Source: Clostridia bacterium (GTDB lineage: Bacteria > Bacillota > Clostridia > RUG12999). From it: a stretch of 40,597 nt of DNA. Shown piece after piece: positions 14,228-23,589 of this stretch. The translations under genes were made by a program, and so were the position numbers. The notes below the pieces were generated by a model. The model was not told the DNA's origin. It searched no databases and saw nothing but the letters and a program-made list of their open reading frames with translations. Location: NCBI GenBank assembly GCA_022801925.1, contig JAAWTG010000003.1, forward strand, positions 84,611 through 125,207, in the 5' to 3' direction. Position 1 is the first letter of the stretch. Each line of letters opens with the position of its first letter.

Positions 14228-14983
14228 ATGCGTATGACGTTTGTGAAATGGTGCGGGGAAACATGTGCGGCGTTGTTGGAGCCGCAAGGCGCAGCGCTTT
14301 TGGAAGGGACATTTGGCAGTTGGTCGCGGACGGGAGAAGTGATACCGCCCGAACAAATAGAGATGACCGGCATGCCGCGTCCTTCCAAGGTGGTGGCAGT
14401 GGGGCTGAATTATCGGCAGCATATTGAGGAAATGGGAGAGGAAACACATGCCGACCCGGTTCTGTTCCTCAAACCCGCCAGCGCAGTGATAGGGCATGGG
14501 AAAGCAATTGTATTGCCGCCCCAGTCGGCGCAGGTGGATTTTGAGGCAGAACTGGCGGTGGTGATGAAAAAACAAGCAAAAAATATCACGCCGGCACAGG
14601 CGGAAGAATATATTTTAGGCTATACCTGTCTGAATGACGTGACGGCGCGGGATTTGCAAAAGAAAGACGGACAGTGGACGCGCGCCAAAGGGTTTGATAC
14701 GTTTTGTCCGATTGGCCCCATCATTACTGATGAAATCAATCCCAATCAGGTGGAAGTGAAACTGCTGCAAAACGGCGTGGTGAGACAGCAGGGGAATACT
14801 TCCATGTTTTTGGTTCCGGTGCAGGAATTGGTGAGTTATGTCTCCTCTGTGATGACATTGCTGCCGGGCGATGTGATAACAACAGGAACGCCGTCCGGTA
14901 TTGGTCCCATGCACGCAGGGGATATCATTTCTGTTGAAATTGAGGGCATTGGAACGCTGACCAATCCGGTGGAACATGCCTGA
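14228..14983 (+). CDS. Fumarylacetoacetate hydrolase family protein
   Basis: A 251-aa cytoplasmic enzyme of the FAH superfamily, which cleaves or isomerises beta-diketo and acylpyruvate substrates with a bound Mg or Mn ion. Motifs seen are KVVAVGLNYRQHIEEMG (about 56-72), FLKPASAVIGHG, the acidic DFEAELAVV (metal ligands), LNDVTARDLQ, AKGFDTFCPIGP and TTGTPSGIGPMHAGD near the end. The specific substrate cannot be read; oxaloacetate tautomerase or acylpyruvase activity is as likely as aromatic degradation. It starts at ATG 14228 with GTAGGAGG 8 bases upstream and is the last gene of the lon-engB transcript. Confidence 0.9.
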   Translation: MRMTFVKWCGETCAALLEPQGAALLEGTFGSWSRTGEVIPPEQIEMTGMPRPSKVVAVGLNYRQHIEEMGEETHADPVLFLKPASAVIGHGKAIVLPPQSAQVDFEAELAVVMKKQAKNITPAQAEEYILGYTCLNDVTARDLQKKDGQWTRAKGFDTFCPIGPIITDEINPNQVEVKLLQNGVVRQQGNTSMFLVPVQELVSYVSSVMTLLPGDVITTGTPSGIGPMHAGDIISVEIEGIGTLTNPVEHA

Positions 14984-15089
14984 TATGAAATGGGAGAAAA
15001 TGCAGCAGAGTTGCATCTGTGATAAGCCGCTTTATCTAAAAAGCCGCTTTCGGCAACATAGAGAAACATAAGATTATTAAAAAAATAGA

Positions 15090-15203
15090 GCCTTTGCACG
15101 CTGCTGCCGCCGGGCAGCAGGTGCGTATTTCGGCATAAGAGAAAGCGAAACGCTGTATTACGTTCGTTGCGCCTGTGTCCGAAAAAGGCATATTGCAAAC
15201 CGT
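15090..15203 (+). ncRNA. Structured 5' leader of the MATE gene (candidate riboswitch)
   Basis: The region between the FAA gene and the MATE gene folds into a junction. P1 pairs GCCTTT (15090-15095) with AAAGGC (15184-15189). P2 is a strong hairpin, GCAC/GTGC and CTGCTGCC/GGCAGCAG with loop GCCG (15096-15124). P3 pairs TTTCGG (15128-15133) with CCGAAA (15179-15184, sharing one base with P1) and contains AGCG/CGCT. TTTGCA (15093-15098) can instead pair with TGCAAA (15194-15199). An intrinsic terminator follows directly. I could not match it to a riboswitch class that I know. About 300 bases here hold no protein gene. Confidence 0.45.
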
Positions 15204-15260
15204 ATCGTCAGGCGCGACAGAAAGTATCTGTCGGGGTACGTAAAGCCTGACGATTTTTTT
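15204..15260 (+). terminator. Intrinsic terminator/attenuator just before the MATE gene
   Basis: ATCGTCAGGC (15204-15213) pairs with GCCTGACGAT (15245-15254), an inner CGACAG/CTGTCG hairpin sits inside, and a run of T follows. The T-run ends 10 bases before the ribosome binding site, leaving no room for a promoter between it and the MATE gene. Confidence 0.82.
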
Positions 15261-15285
15261 ATTCATAAAAGGGAAGGAGAGGAAA

Positions 15286-16602
15286 ATGATGGAGCGAAAT
15301 TTAATACGTTCATTTTCAAAGTATGTATCCATGAGCATTTGCAGTATGCTGGGAATTTCCTGCTATGTATTGGCGGATACCTATTTCATTGCGAATGGTG
15401 TGGGAAGCGCAGGGCTTGCGGCGCTGAACATTGCCATACCGGCATATATGGTAATTAGCGCCTGCGGGCTGCTGCTTGGAATGGGTGGCGCGACGTTGTT
15501 TTCTATTGAAACAGGACGAAAATCACCGAAAGAAATCTTACAGTCTATTTTTACAACTGTGATAGTATTGGGGGCAGTCGTGGGCGCTGTTTTAGCGATA
15601 TTGGGCTGGGCTATACCGAGTCGGATAGCCTATGTGCTTGGCGCAACCGAGGGGATTCGTCCGTTTGCCGCCGTCTATATCCGTACCATGGGAACGTTTG
15701 CACCGGCATTCGTTGTGAGTCAGATATTGGTTTGTTTTGTGCGCAATGACGGTCAGCCCAATTTAGCGATGGCAGCAATGATAGTTTCATCTTTTTCCAA
15801 CATTGTGCTGGACTATGTTTTTGTATATCCACTACATATGGGAATGTTCGGCGCGGCGCTGGCAACGGGAATATCACCGGTTATCAGTATCAGTATTTCG
15901 CTGTGCCATTGGTTCCAAAAAGAAAACCATTTGCGGCTGAATGGGAGGGGCATGACAAAGAAATGGATTGTGCCGGTGGTGAAAACGGGCACGCCGCATT
16001 TTATCGGAGAGATTTCCTCCGGAATCGTGATTTGTTTGTTCAATGTTGTCATTGGGAAAATTGGCGGAGAGGTTGCCATTGCGGCATATGGCATCATTGC
16101 AAACGTAGCGCTGGTGATTCTGGCAATCTTTAACGGTATCAGCCAAGGTGTGCAGCCGCTGATGGGGCGTAGCTTCGGCGCGGGGGAACAGGAGGATTTG
16201 AAAAAGCTGTTTTACCTTGCGGCAGGCTTGGCATTGTTGTTGGGCGGCGCGTTTTATGCGTTTTGTGCGCTAGGTGCGGCGGGGATTGTGAAATTGTTTA
16301 ATAAAGAAGGGTTGGACGCGCTTGTAGAAATTACCGTGCCGGGTATCCGTGTATATTTTTCAGCGTTTTTGTTTGCTGGTATCAATGTTGTGGCGGCGAC
16401 GTATTTTTCTGTGATTTTGCGCCCCAAGGCGGCGTTTTTGAACGCTTCCCTGCGCGGCTTTTTGCTGCCGGTACCATTGGTTTTGCTGTTTGCAGCGTGG
16501 TTTGGCATCACGGGCGTATGGCTATCCGTACCGGCGGCGGAATGTCTGACGCTGCTCATTGTTTTAATATTGTACCGGAAACAGAAAAATGGTATGCGTT
16601 GA
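15286..16602 (+). CDS. MATE family efflux transporter
   Basis: A 438-aa integral membrane protein with about 12 hydrophobic segments in two homologous halves, the layout of MATE drug/sodium antiporters. The N-terminal ADTYFIANGVGSAGLAALNIAIP stretch (about 30-52) is the usual TM1-TM2 region, and GISQGVQPLMGRSFGAG (about 285-301) the matching part of the second half. Family members export cationic drugs, dyes or metabolites using Na+ or H+ gradients; the substrate is unknown. The start is ATG 15286 or the ATG directly after it, behind GGGAAGGAGAGG. The structured leader and terminator upstream suggest ligand-controlled attenuation. The fbp promoter overlaps its stop codon. Confidence 0.92.
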   Translation: MMERNLIRSFSKYVSMSICSMLGISCYVLADTYFIANGVGSAGLAALNIAIPAYMVISACGLLLGMGGATLFSIETGRKSPKEILQSIFTTVIVLGAVVGAVLAILGWAIPSRIAYVLGATEGIRPFAAVYIRTMGTFAPAFVVSQILVCFVRNDGQPNLAMAAMIVSSFSNIVLDYVFVYPLHMGMFGAALATGISPVISISISLCHWFQKENHLRLNGRGMTKKWIVPVVKTGTPHFIGEISSGIVICLFNVVIGKIGGEVAIAAYGIIANVALVILAIFNGISQGVQPLMGRSFGAGEQEDLKKLFYLAAGLALLLGGAFYAFCALGAAGIVKLFNKEGLDALVEITVPGIRVYFSAFLFAGINVVAATYFSVILRPKAAFLNASLRGFLLPVPLVLLFAAWFGITGVWLSVPAAECLTLLIVLILYRKQKNGMR

Positions 16603-19752: not shown

Positions 19753-21408
19753 TTAGGAGCCCTGATTGCTGTTCTTGTCGGAAGATGGTGTTTTTTCTTT
19801 CTGCACTGATTCAGCGGGCGTCTGTGCAGCGACTGCGTCCTGTTCCTGCAACATTTGTTCCAGTTCGTGAATAAGCTTGTCTTTTCCTTCAAAACTCATC
19901 ATACTCAGCGTCATAATTGCCTGTTTGGCGTTTTCAGGACGGAACATACCCATATTATAAAATTCCTGCGCCATTTGATTTTGCGACAGGCGTGTGAACG
20001 GATTAGACTTTTCAGGCAGAATTTTAATGTCAAACACCGGGGCTTCTACGCTTTCGCCCAGCAAATCCTTATTAGAAAATTTGATATATTTCCGGCTGCC
20101 ATCTTCGCCTGTAATACGAATTTGGCGGTCTTCATCAAAGAACTGCCGAATCAGAGAAATACACATATAGATAATTTGCTTATAGCTTTCATAGGTGTTG
20201 TTAATGATATCGCGGGACAGTTTATTTCCTGCCTCCTGCAAAGCCACAATCGCTCCATATGCCGTGACGCCGCCGGAGGAACCGCCCTGCATGAAATCAC
20301 GGTTTCCTGTCAGTTCTTTGAGTTCTTCGATTTTGTTTAAACGGTGTTGGATAATGTAGGGGTCGAGGGGATTTGCCTGAAATTCACGGACATTTTCATC
20401 GCGCAAACTGCCTGTCACATGTACAATATCCTGCGATAAATCCAGCAGTTCCTCTTCGTTGATACCACCGTTATCACGCACCAGCCAGCGGACTTTTCCT
20501 GAAATTAGCGCATTTTCGGAGATGATAGAATCCAGTTTGTCAACATAAGTCTGGCAGTTTTTAGAAAGGTCAATCAACCCAAAACCAACAGGTGTACCAT
20601 CCATTGGATAGAGCACATCAAAGATAACAGGATAGTGTCCATGCGCATATAGTCCGGTTTGCGCTGTCTGCGGGCGGTCTTCGCTGCTGTCAAGCACAGT
20701 ATCGCCGGTGAATTTGGTCATGTGAAGTATTTTTTTGCCGTCGGGCTGCACTACTTTATAGTAGCAGTCCACCACCAGAGATTTTTCCTGAAAATCTACA
20801 TGTTGTTCACGCGACTGGATGCTGAGCAAACCTTCCTGTCCCAATGCATCACCGGCATGGGGATAGAGCGTGCGCAGTTCGTTGTTATCCACCATGTTGA
20901 CAAGGAACAAGTAGCGGGAGTTTTGAATATCCTCCACACCAGGCTCCCAAAAGATGTTGAGAATATCCAGACGTTGGATATCAATGTCTCCCAAACCGCT
21001 ATTCAGTTCCGGATTGAAAAACACGCCATAGGGAACAACGCCGTTTTTCAATTTGTACCAAGTTGCCTTGGAAAATGTGTCTTTGAAGTTGCATGCGTCT
21101 AACTCAAATGGGATGATTTGAGAGAGCATTTCCGCCTGCGGCACATCGTTTTCCTCTCTTGCCAAAACATTGGGAGAAGGATAGTTATCCATAATCTCCG
21201 CATGTTTATAAGCAAGGGCATTGAATAAAAATGATGTGGTTGTCTCAGGAATTTCTGTGCTGCCGCGCACAAAATCCCAATGCTGTGCACGGTACCATTT
21301 GTCATTTTGAATGACTTTGCTGTCAAATTCTTTTTTTGCATTGACATAGGCAATGAGTTTCTTTTGCATATCTGCAAAACGTTCTTTGGAAATGGTTGTT
21401 TGATACAT
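19753..21408 (-). CDS. Isolated phage portal protein
   Basis: A 551-aa intact protein with features I recognise from portal proteins of tailed phages in Firmicutes: TSFLFNALAYKHAEIMDNYP near the start, an IDIQRLDILNIFWEPGVEDIQNSRYLFL block (split about 152-180), LISGKVRWLV, and the GGSSGGVTAYGAIVALQEAGNKLSRDI stretch (about 385-411) typical of the wing/stem region. The C-terminal 35 residues are low-complexity (Q, E, S, K). Portal proteins form the dodecameric DNA gate of a capsid. No terminase, protease, capsid or tail gene is near. The start is ATG 21408 with AAGGAGG 7 bases upstream. It lies 148 bases behind htpG on the same strand without a clear terminator between. It may be a relic or a domesticated gene. 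Confidence 0.75.
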   Translation of the reverse strand: MYQTTISKERFADMQKKLIAYVNAKKEFDSKVIQNDKWYRAQHWDFVRGSTEIPETTTSFLFNALAYKHAEIMDNYPSPNVLAREENDVPQAEMLSQIIPFELDACNFKDTFSKATWYKLKNGVVPYGVFFNPELNSGLGDIDIQRLDILNIFWEPGVEDIQNSRYLFLVNMVDNNELRTLYPHAGDALGQEGLLSIQSREQHVDFQEKSLVVDCYYKVVQPDGKKILHMTKFTGDTVLDSSEDRPQTAQTGLYAHGHYPVIFDVLYPMDGTPVGFGLIDLSKNCQTYVDKLDSIISENALISGKVRWLVRDNGGINEEELLDLSQDIVHVTGSLRDENVREFQANPLDPYIIQHRLNKIEELKELTGNRDFMQGGSSGGVTAYGAIVALQEAGNKLSRDIINNTYESYKQIIYMCISLIRQFFDEDRQIRITGEDGSRKYIKFSNKDLLGESVEAPVFDIKILPEKSNPFTRLSQNQMAQEFYNMGMFRPENAKQAIMTLSMMSFEGKDKLIHELEQMLQEQDAVAAQTPAESVQKEKTPSSDKNSNQGS

Positions 21409-21556: not shown

Positions 21557-23401
21557 TTATTGAAACAATTTGTTTAAAATCTGTCCTGTTCGGGAGACAA
21601 ATTCCGTCATTTGCTCTGCGCTCAGCGGTGTTTGTGCTAATGTCGCAATATCATAGATATAGTGACAGGTTAAATCAGCCAGCTCCTTGTCCGCGCAGCC
21701 TGCAAGCGCACGCACCGCCGGATTTGCCATGTTCAGCGTCAATGTTTTTTGCACAGGACCGCTAGCCATCATCGGACCGCCGAACATTTTGCTCATTTCT
21801 TCCATACGGCGGGATTGTTCATCCAGCGTGACAATGGCAGGAACGGATTCGTTCTTCAGCGATGTTAGTTCAATGTGAAGCTGGTCGTCTTTTAAAGCGT
21901 CTTTGAATAATTGAATCAGTTCTTCCGATTGTTCTACAGAATCGTTTTTGAGAGAATCGGCAAGACCGGCGTCAATACGCTCGAATTTTACTGTATTGTT
22001 TTTATATTCTGCAAAACTAATGAAATGTGTGTCCAAAACATGGGGCAAAATGACTGCTTGCAATCCGTTCTCCTGAAACATGGAAATATATTGTGCCTGC
22101 TGTTTCGGGTCGGAAACATAATAGACTTTGTTTTCGTGCTGCTCTTTTGCCTTGTCCAGATATTCTTCCAGCGTTACATAGGTTTCATCTGTGGTCTTGT
22201 AAAGAATACTGCTGCCGATGCGGTCATAGAATTTTTCGTCTTGCATGCAGCCGAATTTAATAAACGGACTGATGTCGTCCCAATATTTTTCATAGGAGGG
22301 ACGGTCAGTTTTAAACATAGAAGTTAGCTTATCTGCAACTTTTTTTGTGATGTGTTCCGATACTTTGCGGACATATCCGTCGTTTTGCAGAAAACTGCGC
22401 GATACGTTCAGCGGCAAATCAGGACAGTCGATAACGCCCTTGAGCAGCATTAAATATTCAGGAATCACTTCTTTGATATTGTCTGCAACAAATACCTGAT
22501 TGTTGTAGAGTTTGATTTGTCCGGTGGACGAATCCATTTCATGTTTGAGTTTTGGAAAATATAAAATCCCTTTTAAATTAAACGGATAGTCCACGTTGAG
22601 GTGAATCCAAAACAGCGGCGGTGTGAAATCGAAAAAGACTTTATGATAAAAGTCAATATATTCTTCGTCAGTGCATTCCGACGGTTGTTTCAGCCAAAGT
22701 GGATTGGGGTCGTTAATCGGCGTAGGTTCCTTTGGCGTTTCTTCGGTTGTTTCGTCTTCCGCTGCAGTTTCTTCTTTGGAGGCATTTGCATCAATACAGT
22801 AGATGTTGGTGGGCAGAAAACTGCAATATTTGTGCAGAACACTTTCCACCGTATAGAAATTCAGCATGTCTTCATTATCAGCGGAGATATGTAGAATCAC
22901 ATCACTCCCGCGCTGTGTGCGCGTACCTTCCGTGAGTTCGTAGTCCGTGCCGCCTTCGCAGCTCCAAAACGCCGGTTTTGCGTCGGGCTGGCAGGACAAC
23001 GTATGGATTTCCACTTTGTCTGCTACCATGAATGCAGAATAGAATCCAAGTCCAAAATGACCGATGATGGTGTTATCATCTTTATATTTGCTTAAAAATT
23101 CTTCTGCGCCGGAAAATGCCACCTGCGTGATATATTTTTCTACTTCTTCTGCCGTCATACCGATTCCGTTGTCGGAAAATGTCAGCGTTTTGTTTTCTTT
23201 ATCTACCGTTACCGTCACGGCATATTGCGGATTGTCCTCCACCTGCGCTTCGCCCACACCAACCAGTTTTTTTAGCTTTGCAATTGCATCGCAGCCGTTT
23301 GATACCAGTTCGCGGATGAAAATATCTTTGTCAGAATACAGCCACTTTTTAATAATGGGAAATATGTTTTCCGTATGGACTTGAATGGTTCCCTTTGCCA
23401 T
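21557..23401 (-). CDS. htpG: Chaperone protein HtpG (Hsp90)
   Basis: A 614-aa ATP-dependent chaperone of the Hsp90 family. The GHKL ATP site is seen as Glu31 in FIRELVSNGCDAI, DNGIGMT (77-83) and GHFGLGFYSAF (114-124). Middle and dimerisation domains follow, ending in a bacterial-type tail without MEEVD. Between the N and middle domains (about 203-234) lies an acidic Glu/Thr-rich linker, longer than in E. coli HtpG. The frame extends upstream, but ATG 23401 (MAKGTIQVHTENIFP) is preceded by AAAGGAGG and fits the family. A perfect CIRCE element lies 39 bases upstream, so HrcA control is likely. The portal gene follows on the same strand. Confidence 0.97.
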   Translation of the reverse strand: MAKGTIQVHTENIFPIIKKWLYSDKDIFIRELVSNGCDAIAKLKKLVGVGEAQVEDNPQYAVTVTVDKENKTLTFSDNGIGMTAEEVEKYITQVAFSGAEEFLSKYKDDNTIIGHFGLGFYSAFMVADKVEIHTLSCQPDAKPAFWSCEGGTDYELTEGTRTQRGSDVILHISADNEDMLNFYTVESVLHKYCSFLPTNIYCIDANASKEETAAEDETTEETPKEPTPINDPNPLWLKQPSECTDEEYIDFYHKVFFDFTPPLFWIHLNVDYPFNLKGILYFPKLKHEMDSSTGQIKLYNNQVFVADNIKEVIPEYLMLLKGVIDCPDLPLNVSRSFLQNDGYVRKVSEHITKKVADKLTSMFKTDRPSYEKYWDDISPFIKFGCMQDEKFYDRIGSSILYKTTDETYVTLEEYLDKAKEQHENKVYYVSDPKQQAQYISMFQENGLQAVILPHVLDTHFISFAEYKNNTVKFERIDAGLADSLKNDSVEQSEELIQLFKDALKDDQLHIELTSLKNESVPAIVTLDEQSRRMEEMSKMFGGPMMASGPVQKTLTLNMANPAVRALAGCADKELADLTCHYIYDIATLAQTPLSAEQMTEFVSRTGQILNKLFQ

Positions 23402-23439
23402 GATACTGGTTCCTCCTTTGTAGTAAACAAGCAATTTTG

Positions 23440-23466
23440 TTAGCACTCTCATCTACTGAGTGCTAA
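23440..23466. promoter_or_regulatory. CIRCE element (HrcA operator) of htpG
   Basis: TTAGCACTC (23440-23448), 9 bases, GAGTGCTAA (23458-23466): an exact match to the CIRCE consensus. It lies in the htpG leader. No hrcA gene is in the window. Confidence 0.95.
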
Positions 23467-23512: not shown

Positions 23513-23589
23513 TGGTCGGGGTTGAGGGATTTGAACCCGCGGCCTCATGGTCCCAAACCATGCGCGCTACCAAACTGCGCCAAACCCCG
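23513..23589 (-). tRNA. tRNA-Pro (anticodon UGG)
   Basis: A 77-base tRNA on the minus strand, including an encoded CCA (TGG at 23513-23515 on +). The acceptor stem pairs CGGGGTT with AACCCCG, the anticodon stem-loop is CATGG-TTTGGGA-CCATG giving anticodon TGG, and the T-arm has GGTTCAAATC. It has its own promoter and terminator. Confidence 0.95.

Follow-up and report, generated by a model that had tools for sequence, protein, structure and literature searches.

Which regulatory RNA lies in front of the gene for a MATE family exporter in this clostridial genome, and to what does it respond? The DNA analysed, referred to here as the window, is a stretch of 40,597 nt from Clostridia bacterium (GTDB RUG12999; assembly GCA_022801925.1, contig JAAWTG010000003.1, positions 84,611-125,207 of the forward strand). 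A sequence-only reading of the window had proposed a terminator-based riboswitch in the exporter leader and had found in it no conserved core of the common riboswitch classes.

A conserved and strongly folded leader upstream of the MATE gene

The strongly folded leader proposed at 15084-15285 proved to be real. The predicted fold of this 202-nt RNA was -72.7 kcal/mol as compared to -57.6 +/- 4.1 kcal/mol for dinucleotide shuffles (z -3.66), and none of 200 shuffles folded as well. Leader orthologs were compared between the window and two congeners (L032 and L033; n = 3), whose leaders share 92% and 84% identity with that of the window. Almost no change was seen across the three orthologs in P0, the P1 loop and the stretch CGUAUCGUCAGGCGCG...GGGGUACGUAAA, and the sequence of the P3 arm was the least conserved part of the leader (Table 1). 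A genome-wide search detected a single copy of the leader in the 2.95-Mb genome. In L032 the FAH-family gene and the MATE leader are separated by a PhzF-like gene (1428-2228), indicating that leader and MATE gene move together.

The helices that had been described at 15090-15095/15184-15189, 15096-15124 and 15128-15133/15179-15184 were found there, with base 15184 assigned to two of them (a 1-nt overlap). Their naming had to be revised, as the hairpin first called P2 corresponds to P1 of the guanidine-IV riboswitch and the P2 of that family is a second hairpin, at 15201-15240, hidden within the terminator. The strong intrinsic terminator was likewise confirmed, ending 25 bases upstream of the ATG at 15286; the program used to scan for terminators missed it because its loop exceeds the length limit of the scan. 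A sigma-70 scan of 14900-15400 found no promoter between terminator and gene, in agreement with the earlier reading, and recognised none upstream of the leader. A proposed alternative pairing, TTTGCA/TGCAAA, can form in the window, but L032 has lost it and L033 retains it only through a G-U pair; since it is not conserved between orthologs, it was dismissed as a switch.

Table 1. Features of the leader and exporter gene, in window coordinates.
Feature	Position	Strand	Basis
Conserved leader RNA, from P0 base to terminator U-run	15084..15264	+	Ortholog identity; fold z -3.66 for 15084-15285
P0, GCCUUU 15090-15095 / AAAGGC 15184-15189, closes three-way junction; extra AAUA/UAUU pairing beneath	15090..15189	+	Identical in 3/3 orthologs
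P1 hairpin: lower GCAC/GUGC 15096-15099/15121-15124; upper CUGCUG/CAGCAG 15101-15106/15115-15120	15096..15124	+	Sequence
P1 loop CCGCCGGG, equal to guanidine-IV loop 1	15107..15114	+	Identical loop in guanidine-IV relatives
P3 arm, about 57 nt, inserted between P1 and P2	15128..15184	+	Lower stem retained though the arm is the most diverged leader part
P2: CGUAUC 15201-15206 / GGUACG 15235-15240	15201..15240	+	Descriptor match; every pair retained in three orthologs
Loop 2, 5' side, GUCAGGCG, begins GUCAGGC	15207..15214	+	Family consensus RUUAGGYC; covariation
Hairpin inserted in loop 2: CGACAGA/UCUGUCG, 7 bp, resembles Gd4v D2	15215..15233	+	Kept in 3/3 orthologs
G before P2 3' arm, matches conserved loop 2 G (inferred D1 position)	15234..15234	+	G in window and both congeners
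Intrinsic terminator: AUCGUCAGGC 15204-15213 / GCCUGACGAU 15245-15254, U-run 15254-15260	15204..15260	+	3' domain fold -24.3 kcal/mol; conserved in orthologs
Ribosome binding site AAGGAGAGG	15274..15282	+	Sequence
MATE family exporter, 438 aa	15286..16602	+	Pfam MatE E 3e-32; within guanidine-IV-led MATE clade 98/98

Relatives of the exporter carry guanidine-IV leaders

Searches that started from the leader itself stayed within the genus. Rfam returned no credible match in the window leader, at gathering scores or at E 10. A DNA search with the leader in 391 genomes of the class recovered the orthologs and five short matches, two of which (L038 and L040) are coding sequence while the others look like chance, and a covariance model built from the three orthologs (R1) detected no further copies, with weak matches below 19 bits taken as noise. 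As leader DNA and covariance searches reached only the genus, the MATE gene became the route to identification. Separately, Rfam 15 does not report the guanidine-IV class even in plain members (the leaders of L005, L006 and L009), so such leaders may lack labels in Rfam-based genome annotations.

In a protein search of 99 genomes, a guanidine-IV leader preceded each of the seven MATE homologs that ranked closest outside the genus (L004-L010). The L004 leader was detected by eye and with the descriptor given below, the L007 leader precedes a PNPOx-MATE gene pair, and the L008 and L010 leaders were found with model R2, a guanidine-IV covariance model built from four sequences with the window excluded. 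The 400 bases upstream of the MATE genes of L011-L031 yielded no guanidine-IV leader. The leaders of the nearest homologs in other families are shorter and have UUUGCCGCCGGGUAAA and CAUACCGUUAGGCCUUUGAAGGUAUG ahead of the U-run. A maximum-likelihood tree nested the window MATE among riboswitch-led MATEs with support of 98/98, next to L004, L060, L122 and L128; this tree takes in loci gathered via the riboswitch, and thus the nesting is informative and the share of led genes is not. The genome showed no match to guanidine-I, guanidine-II or sugE, and so no competing exporter of these kinds was seen.

The guanidine-IV riboswitch (GGAM-1, mepA motif; Lenkeit 2020, PMC7736828) has been described as an ON switch that acts through control of termination, with targets that include MATE and PnuC genes (PMC7736828). 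The MATE relatives revealed a guanidine-IV core in the window leader as well, and the earlier statement that it holds no conserved core of a common class was wrong.

A probable, rearranged guanidine-IV core in the window leader

The leader resembles guanidine-IV RNAs in the P1 loop (CCRCCGGG), the start of the P2 loop (RUYAGGY), the kissing loops, the conserved G of loop 2, the terminator with its U-run and the same-clade MATE gene downstream, MATE genes being a known target. The P1 loop sits atop a 6-bp stem (15101-15120) and the P1 pairs are retained in the orthologs, with C-G to U-G changes. P2 occupies the place of CGUAUC/GAUACG in the L007 leader. Aligned to the family consensus RUUAGGYCNNNG, loop 2 of the window starts with GUCAGG, which is also seen in the members L109 and L121, carries G in place of the C after Y (GGCG as compared to GGYC in guanidine-IV) and has a 19-nt hairpin in place of NNN before the final G. 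The position equivalent to G15234 is G in 99 of 113 aligned family matches and a gap in 10, and L004, L060, L122 and L128 share with the window a G immediately 5' of the P2 3' arm.

Positions 3-5 of loop 1 can pair with positions 5-7 of loop 2 in the window (G15109-C15213, C15110-G15212 and C15111-G15211). Across 104 aligned family matches, loop 1 position 3 and loop 2 position 7 covaried, forming standard pairs in 102, of which 96 were Watson-Crick as compared to at most 73 in 20,000 permutations. This covariation shows the kissing pair to be genuine in the guanidine-IV family. It is the outermost kissing pair, A29-U72 in the C. botulinum RNA, where it was studied together with the adjacent C30-G71 (PMC11611296). 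In that RNA, the compensatory double mutant corresponding to a change at G15212 failed to re-establish kissing. The window orthologs add no covariation of their own in P2 or the kissing bases because these bases are invariant among the three. P2 and the 12-nt GGGGUACGUAAA, which would otherwise be a mere internal loop of the terminator, stayed unchanged in the orthologs while P3 diverged.

These elements were combined into a descriptor consisting of P1, CCNCCGGG, P2 with RUYAGGN and kissing complementarity. The descriptor matched once in the window and 60,000 shuffles gave no match; across 1.08 Mb of searched sequence its matches were confined to family members and the window orthologs. Since it was written after the window was seen, these figures bound chance and are not a blind test. 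A simpler core pattern with a long linker matched one site in the 2.9-Mb genome, that of the window.

Several parts of the window leader depart from the family. Ordinary guanidine-IV members have no P3 arm, no three-way junction at P1 and no hairpin in loop 2, whereas in the window P1 lies inside P0 next to P3, and loop 2 carries the hairpin. The guanidine-IV terminator extends P2; that of the window is formed between loop 2 and sequence further downstream, its 5' arm being part of the P2 5' arm together with loop 2. The leader of L004 (genome G078), whose MATE gene was the nearest homolog outside the genus in the protein search, has the same P1 loop, P2 as CGUAU/AUACG and a terminator, GGCCUGCG/CGCAGGCC, that likewise uses loop 2 as its 5' arm, but it has neither the P3 arm nor the loop 2 hairpin.

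Model R2 found the guanidine-IV family in 85 of the 391 genomes of the class, with MATE, PnuC, SugE, PNPOx-like and GNAT genes among those downstream. Against the window it scored 12.2 bits (E 1.4; 12-14 bits overall), short of significance and through P1 only, which can be explained by the insertions in the window. R2 fails to recruit the window, and we therefore claim descent from guanidine-IV and not recognised membership, recruitment being a criterion of the search and not a molecular feature. Comparison of sequences and predicted structures indicates that the leader very probably descends from the guanidine-IV family, as a divergent member to which an arm and a hairpin have been added and whose terminator is rearranged. 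This points to a guanidine-IV core that tolerates large insertions and rewiring of the terminator, so that such RNAs escape current covariance models.

Comparison with Gd4v and other readings of the leader

Gd4v is an orphan variant of guanidine-IV (Lenkeit 2022, PMC9788692). It is enriched in the gut and is also found upstream of MATE genes, a loop 2 hairpin (D2) is always present in the published Gd4v subset and never in the guanidine-IV subset, and a G (D1) is always present in guanidine-IV and never in Gd4v (PMC9788692). From the mutants described in the papers and from L103 and L116, the D1 G would be position 12 of loop 2. L103 and L116 were taken as examples of Gd4v because they have such a hairpin, similar to the insert in the window, with GNAT and ornithine-cyclodeaminase genes downstream.

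The window leader could accordingly be read as a Gd4v-type riboswitch that uses the same kissing-hairpin mechanism for the Gd4v ligand rather than guanidine. It has the extra loop 2 hairpin on top of the terminator, in which one pair is A-U, G-U and G-C across the three orthologs (one compensatory change), and both the gut enrichment and the MATE targets of Gd4v fit. However, the window and both congeners retain G at the putative D1 position, where L103 and L116 have A, and loop 1 is CCGCCGGG and not TCCCCGGG/CCCCCGGG ((T/C)CCCCGGG) as in those two RNAs. A covariance model built from L103 and L116 (R3) did not match the window, and its matches in 311 genomes were limited to its seeds and to ordinary guanidine-IV RNAs. 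The window MATE also groups with guanidine-IV-led MATEs. We consider a Gd4v-type switch quite unlikely.

With hairpin and G both present, the window and both congeners combine marks of Gd4v and of guanidine-IV. The leader thus carries one diagnostic feature from each of two sister riboswitches that were reported as strictly distinct, which makes it a candidate bridge for learning what distinguishes guanidine sensing from recognition of the Gd4v ligand. A tentative and on balance improbable extension is that it represents a natural intermediate, joining features reported as mutually exclusive. In such an RNA, P3 would be a second arm, for sensing or as a scaffold, the terminator would be built on loop 2, and the ligand specificity might be shifted or dual.

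A different possibility is that the aptamer is the three-way junction of P0, P1 and P3, which would represent an unknown class with a fortuitous likeness to guanidine-IV. This junction is stable, it is conserved in three species and Rfam holds nothing similar. Yet loop 1, loop 2, P2 and kissing complementarity do not occur together by chance, the MATE relatives carry guanidine-IV leaders, and P3 is the least conserved part of the RNA, making a junction aptamer highly improbable. The earlier proposal of a terminator-based riboswitch on the exporter stands as the best reading, with comparative support, but the sensor is most likely the pair of kissing hairpins P1 and P2 and not the junction as such.

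A plain attenuator, whether governed by a leader peptide or a protein or simply a constitutive terminator, has in its favour the strong terminator immediately before the gene and a 10-bp alternative helix between the P3 3' strand and loop 2 in the predicted nascent transcripts of the window, but it is scarcely credible given that the bases within the terminator loop are invariant, a constraint that a plain terminator would not impose, and the leader peptide is dismissed by the lack of an ATG from 15084 to the terminator and by indels between orthologs that break the frames.

A proposed switching mechanism

Taken as a whole, the leader is probably a divergent guanidine-IV-family riboswitch acting as a transcriptional ON switch for the MATE exporter. 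The direction of switching is most likely ON by analogy with the tested guanidine-IV RNAs, and guanidine would be the likely ligand, a somewhat less secure proposition. Without ligand, AUCGUCAGGC would pair with GCCUGACGAU and RNA polymerase would halt at the U-run. With ligand, P1 and P2 would form and their loops would kiss through GCC (15109-15111) and GGC (15211-15213). P2 with its kissing contact and the terminator exclude each other directly because the terminator 5' arm is made of part of the P2 5' arm and loop 2. With P2 and loop 2 occupied, no terminator would form, the exporter would be made and the ligand would be pumped out.

Nearest-neighbour energies, which take account of neither kissing nor ligand, favoured the terminator state over the P2 state by about 10-11 kcal/mol. 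As the finished terminator outcompetes P2 by this amount, switching must be kinetic and decided during transcription, as has been proposed for C. botulinum. The ligand would stabilise P2 and the kissing pair before the terminator 3' arm is transcribed. The P0/P3 junction may present P1 and take the place of the usual single-stranded linker. The 10-bp helix between the P3 3' strand and loop 2 appeared in the predicted nascent folds of the window at 15240-15244 and is imperfect in the orthologs. The identity of the leader also suggests a substrate for this gut MATE exporter.

Other guanidine-IV leaders and neighbouring genes

Guanidine-IV leaders were also detected directly before pyridoxamine-phosphate-oxidase-like genes, in L007 (201-862, followed by the MATE gene), L109, L117 and L129; the word "pyridoxamine" is absent from the main text of the paper describing the discovery of guanidine-IV (PMC7736828). 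In L120 and L124 guanidine-IV leaders precede PnuC-like genes, and there the terminator seems to be formed between the P1 loop region (CCGCC) and sequence further downstream. Judged by these predicted pairings, this appears to be another rewired expression platform.

Elsewhere in the window, a phage portal protein (PHROG 156, E 1.6e-72) is encoded on the minus strand at 19753-21408, near an htpG-like gene (21557-23452) and a tRNA gene (23516-23589), and this region is possibly a prophage or a prophage remnant.
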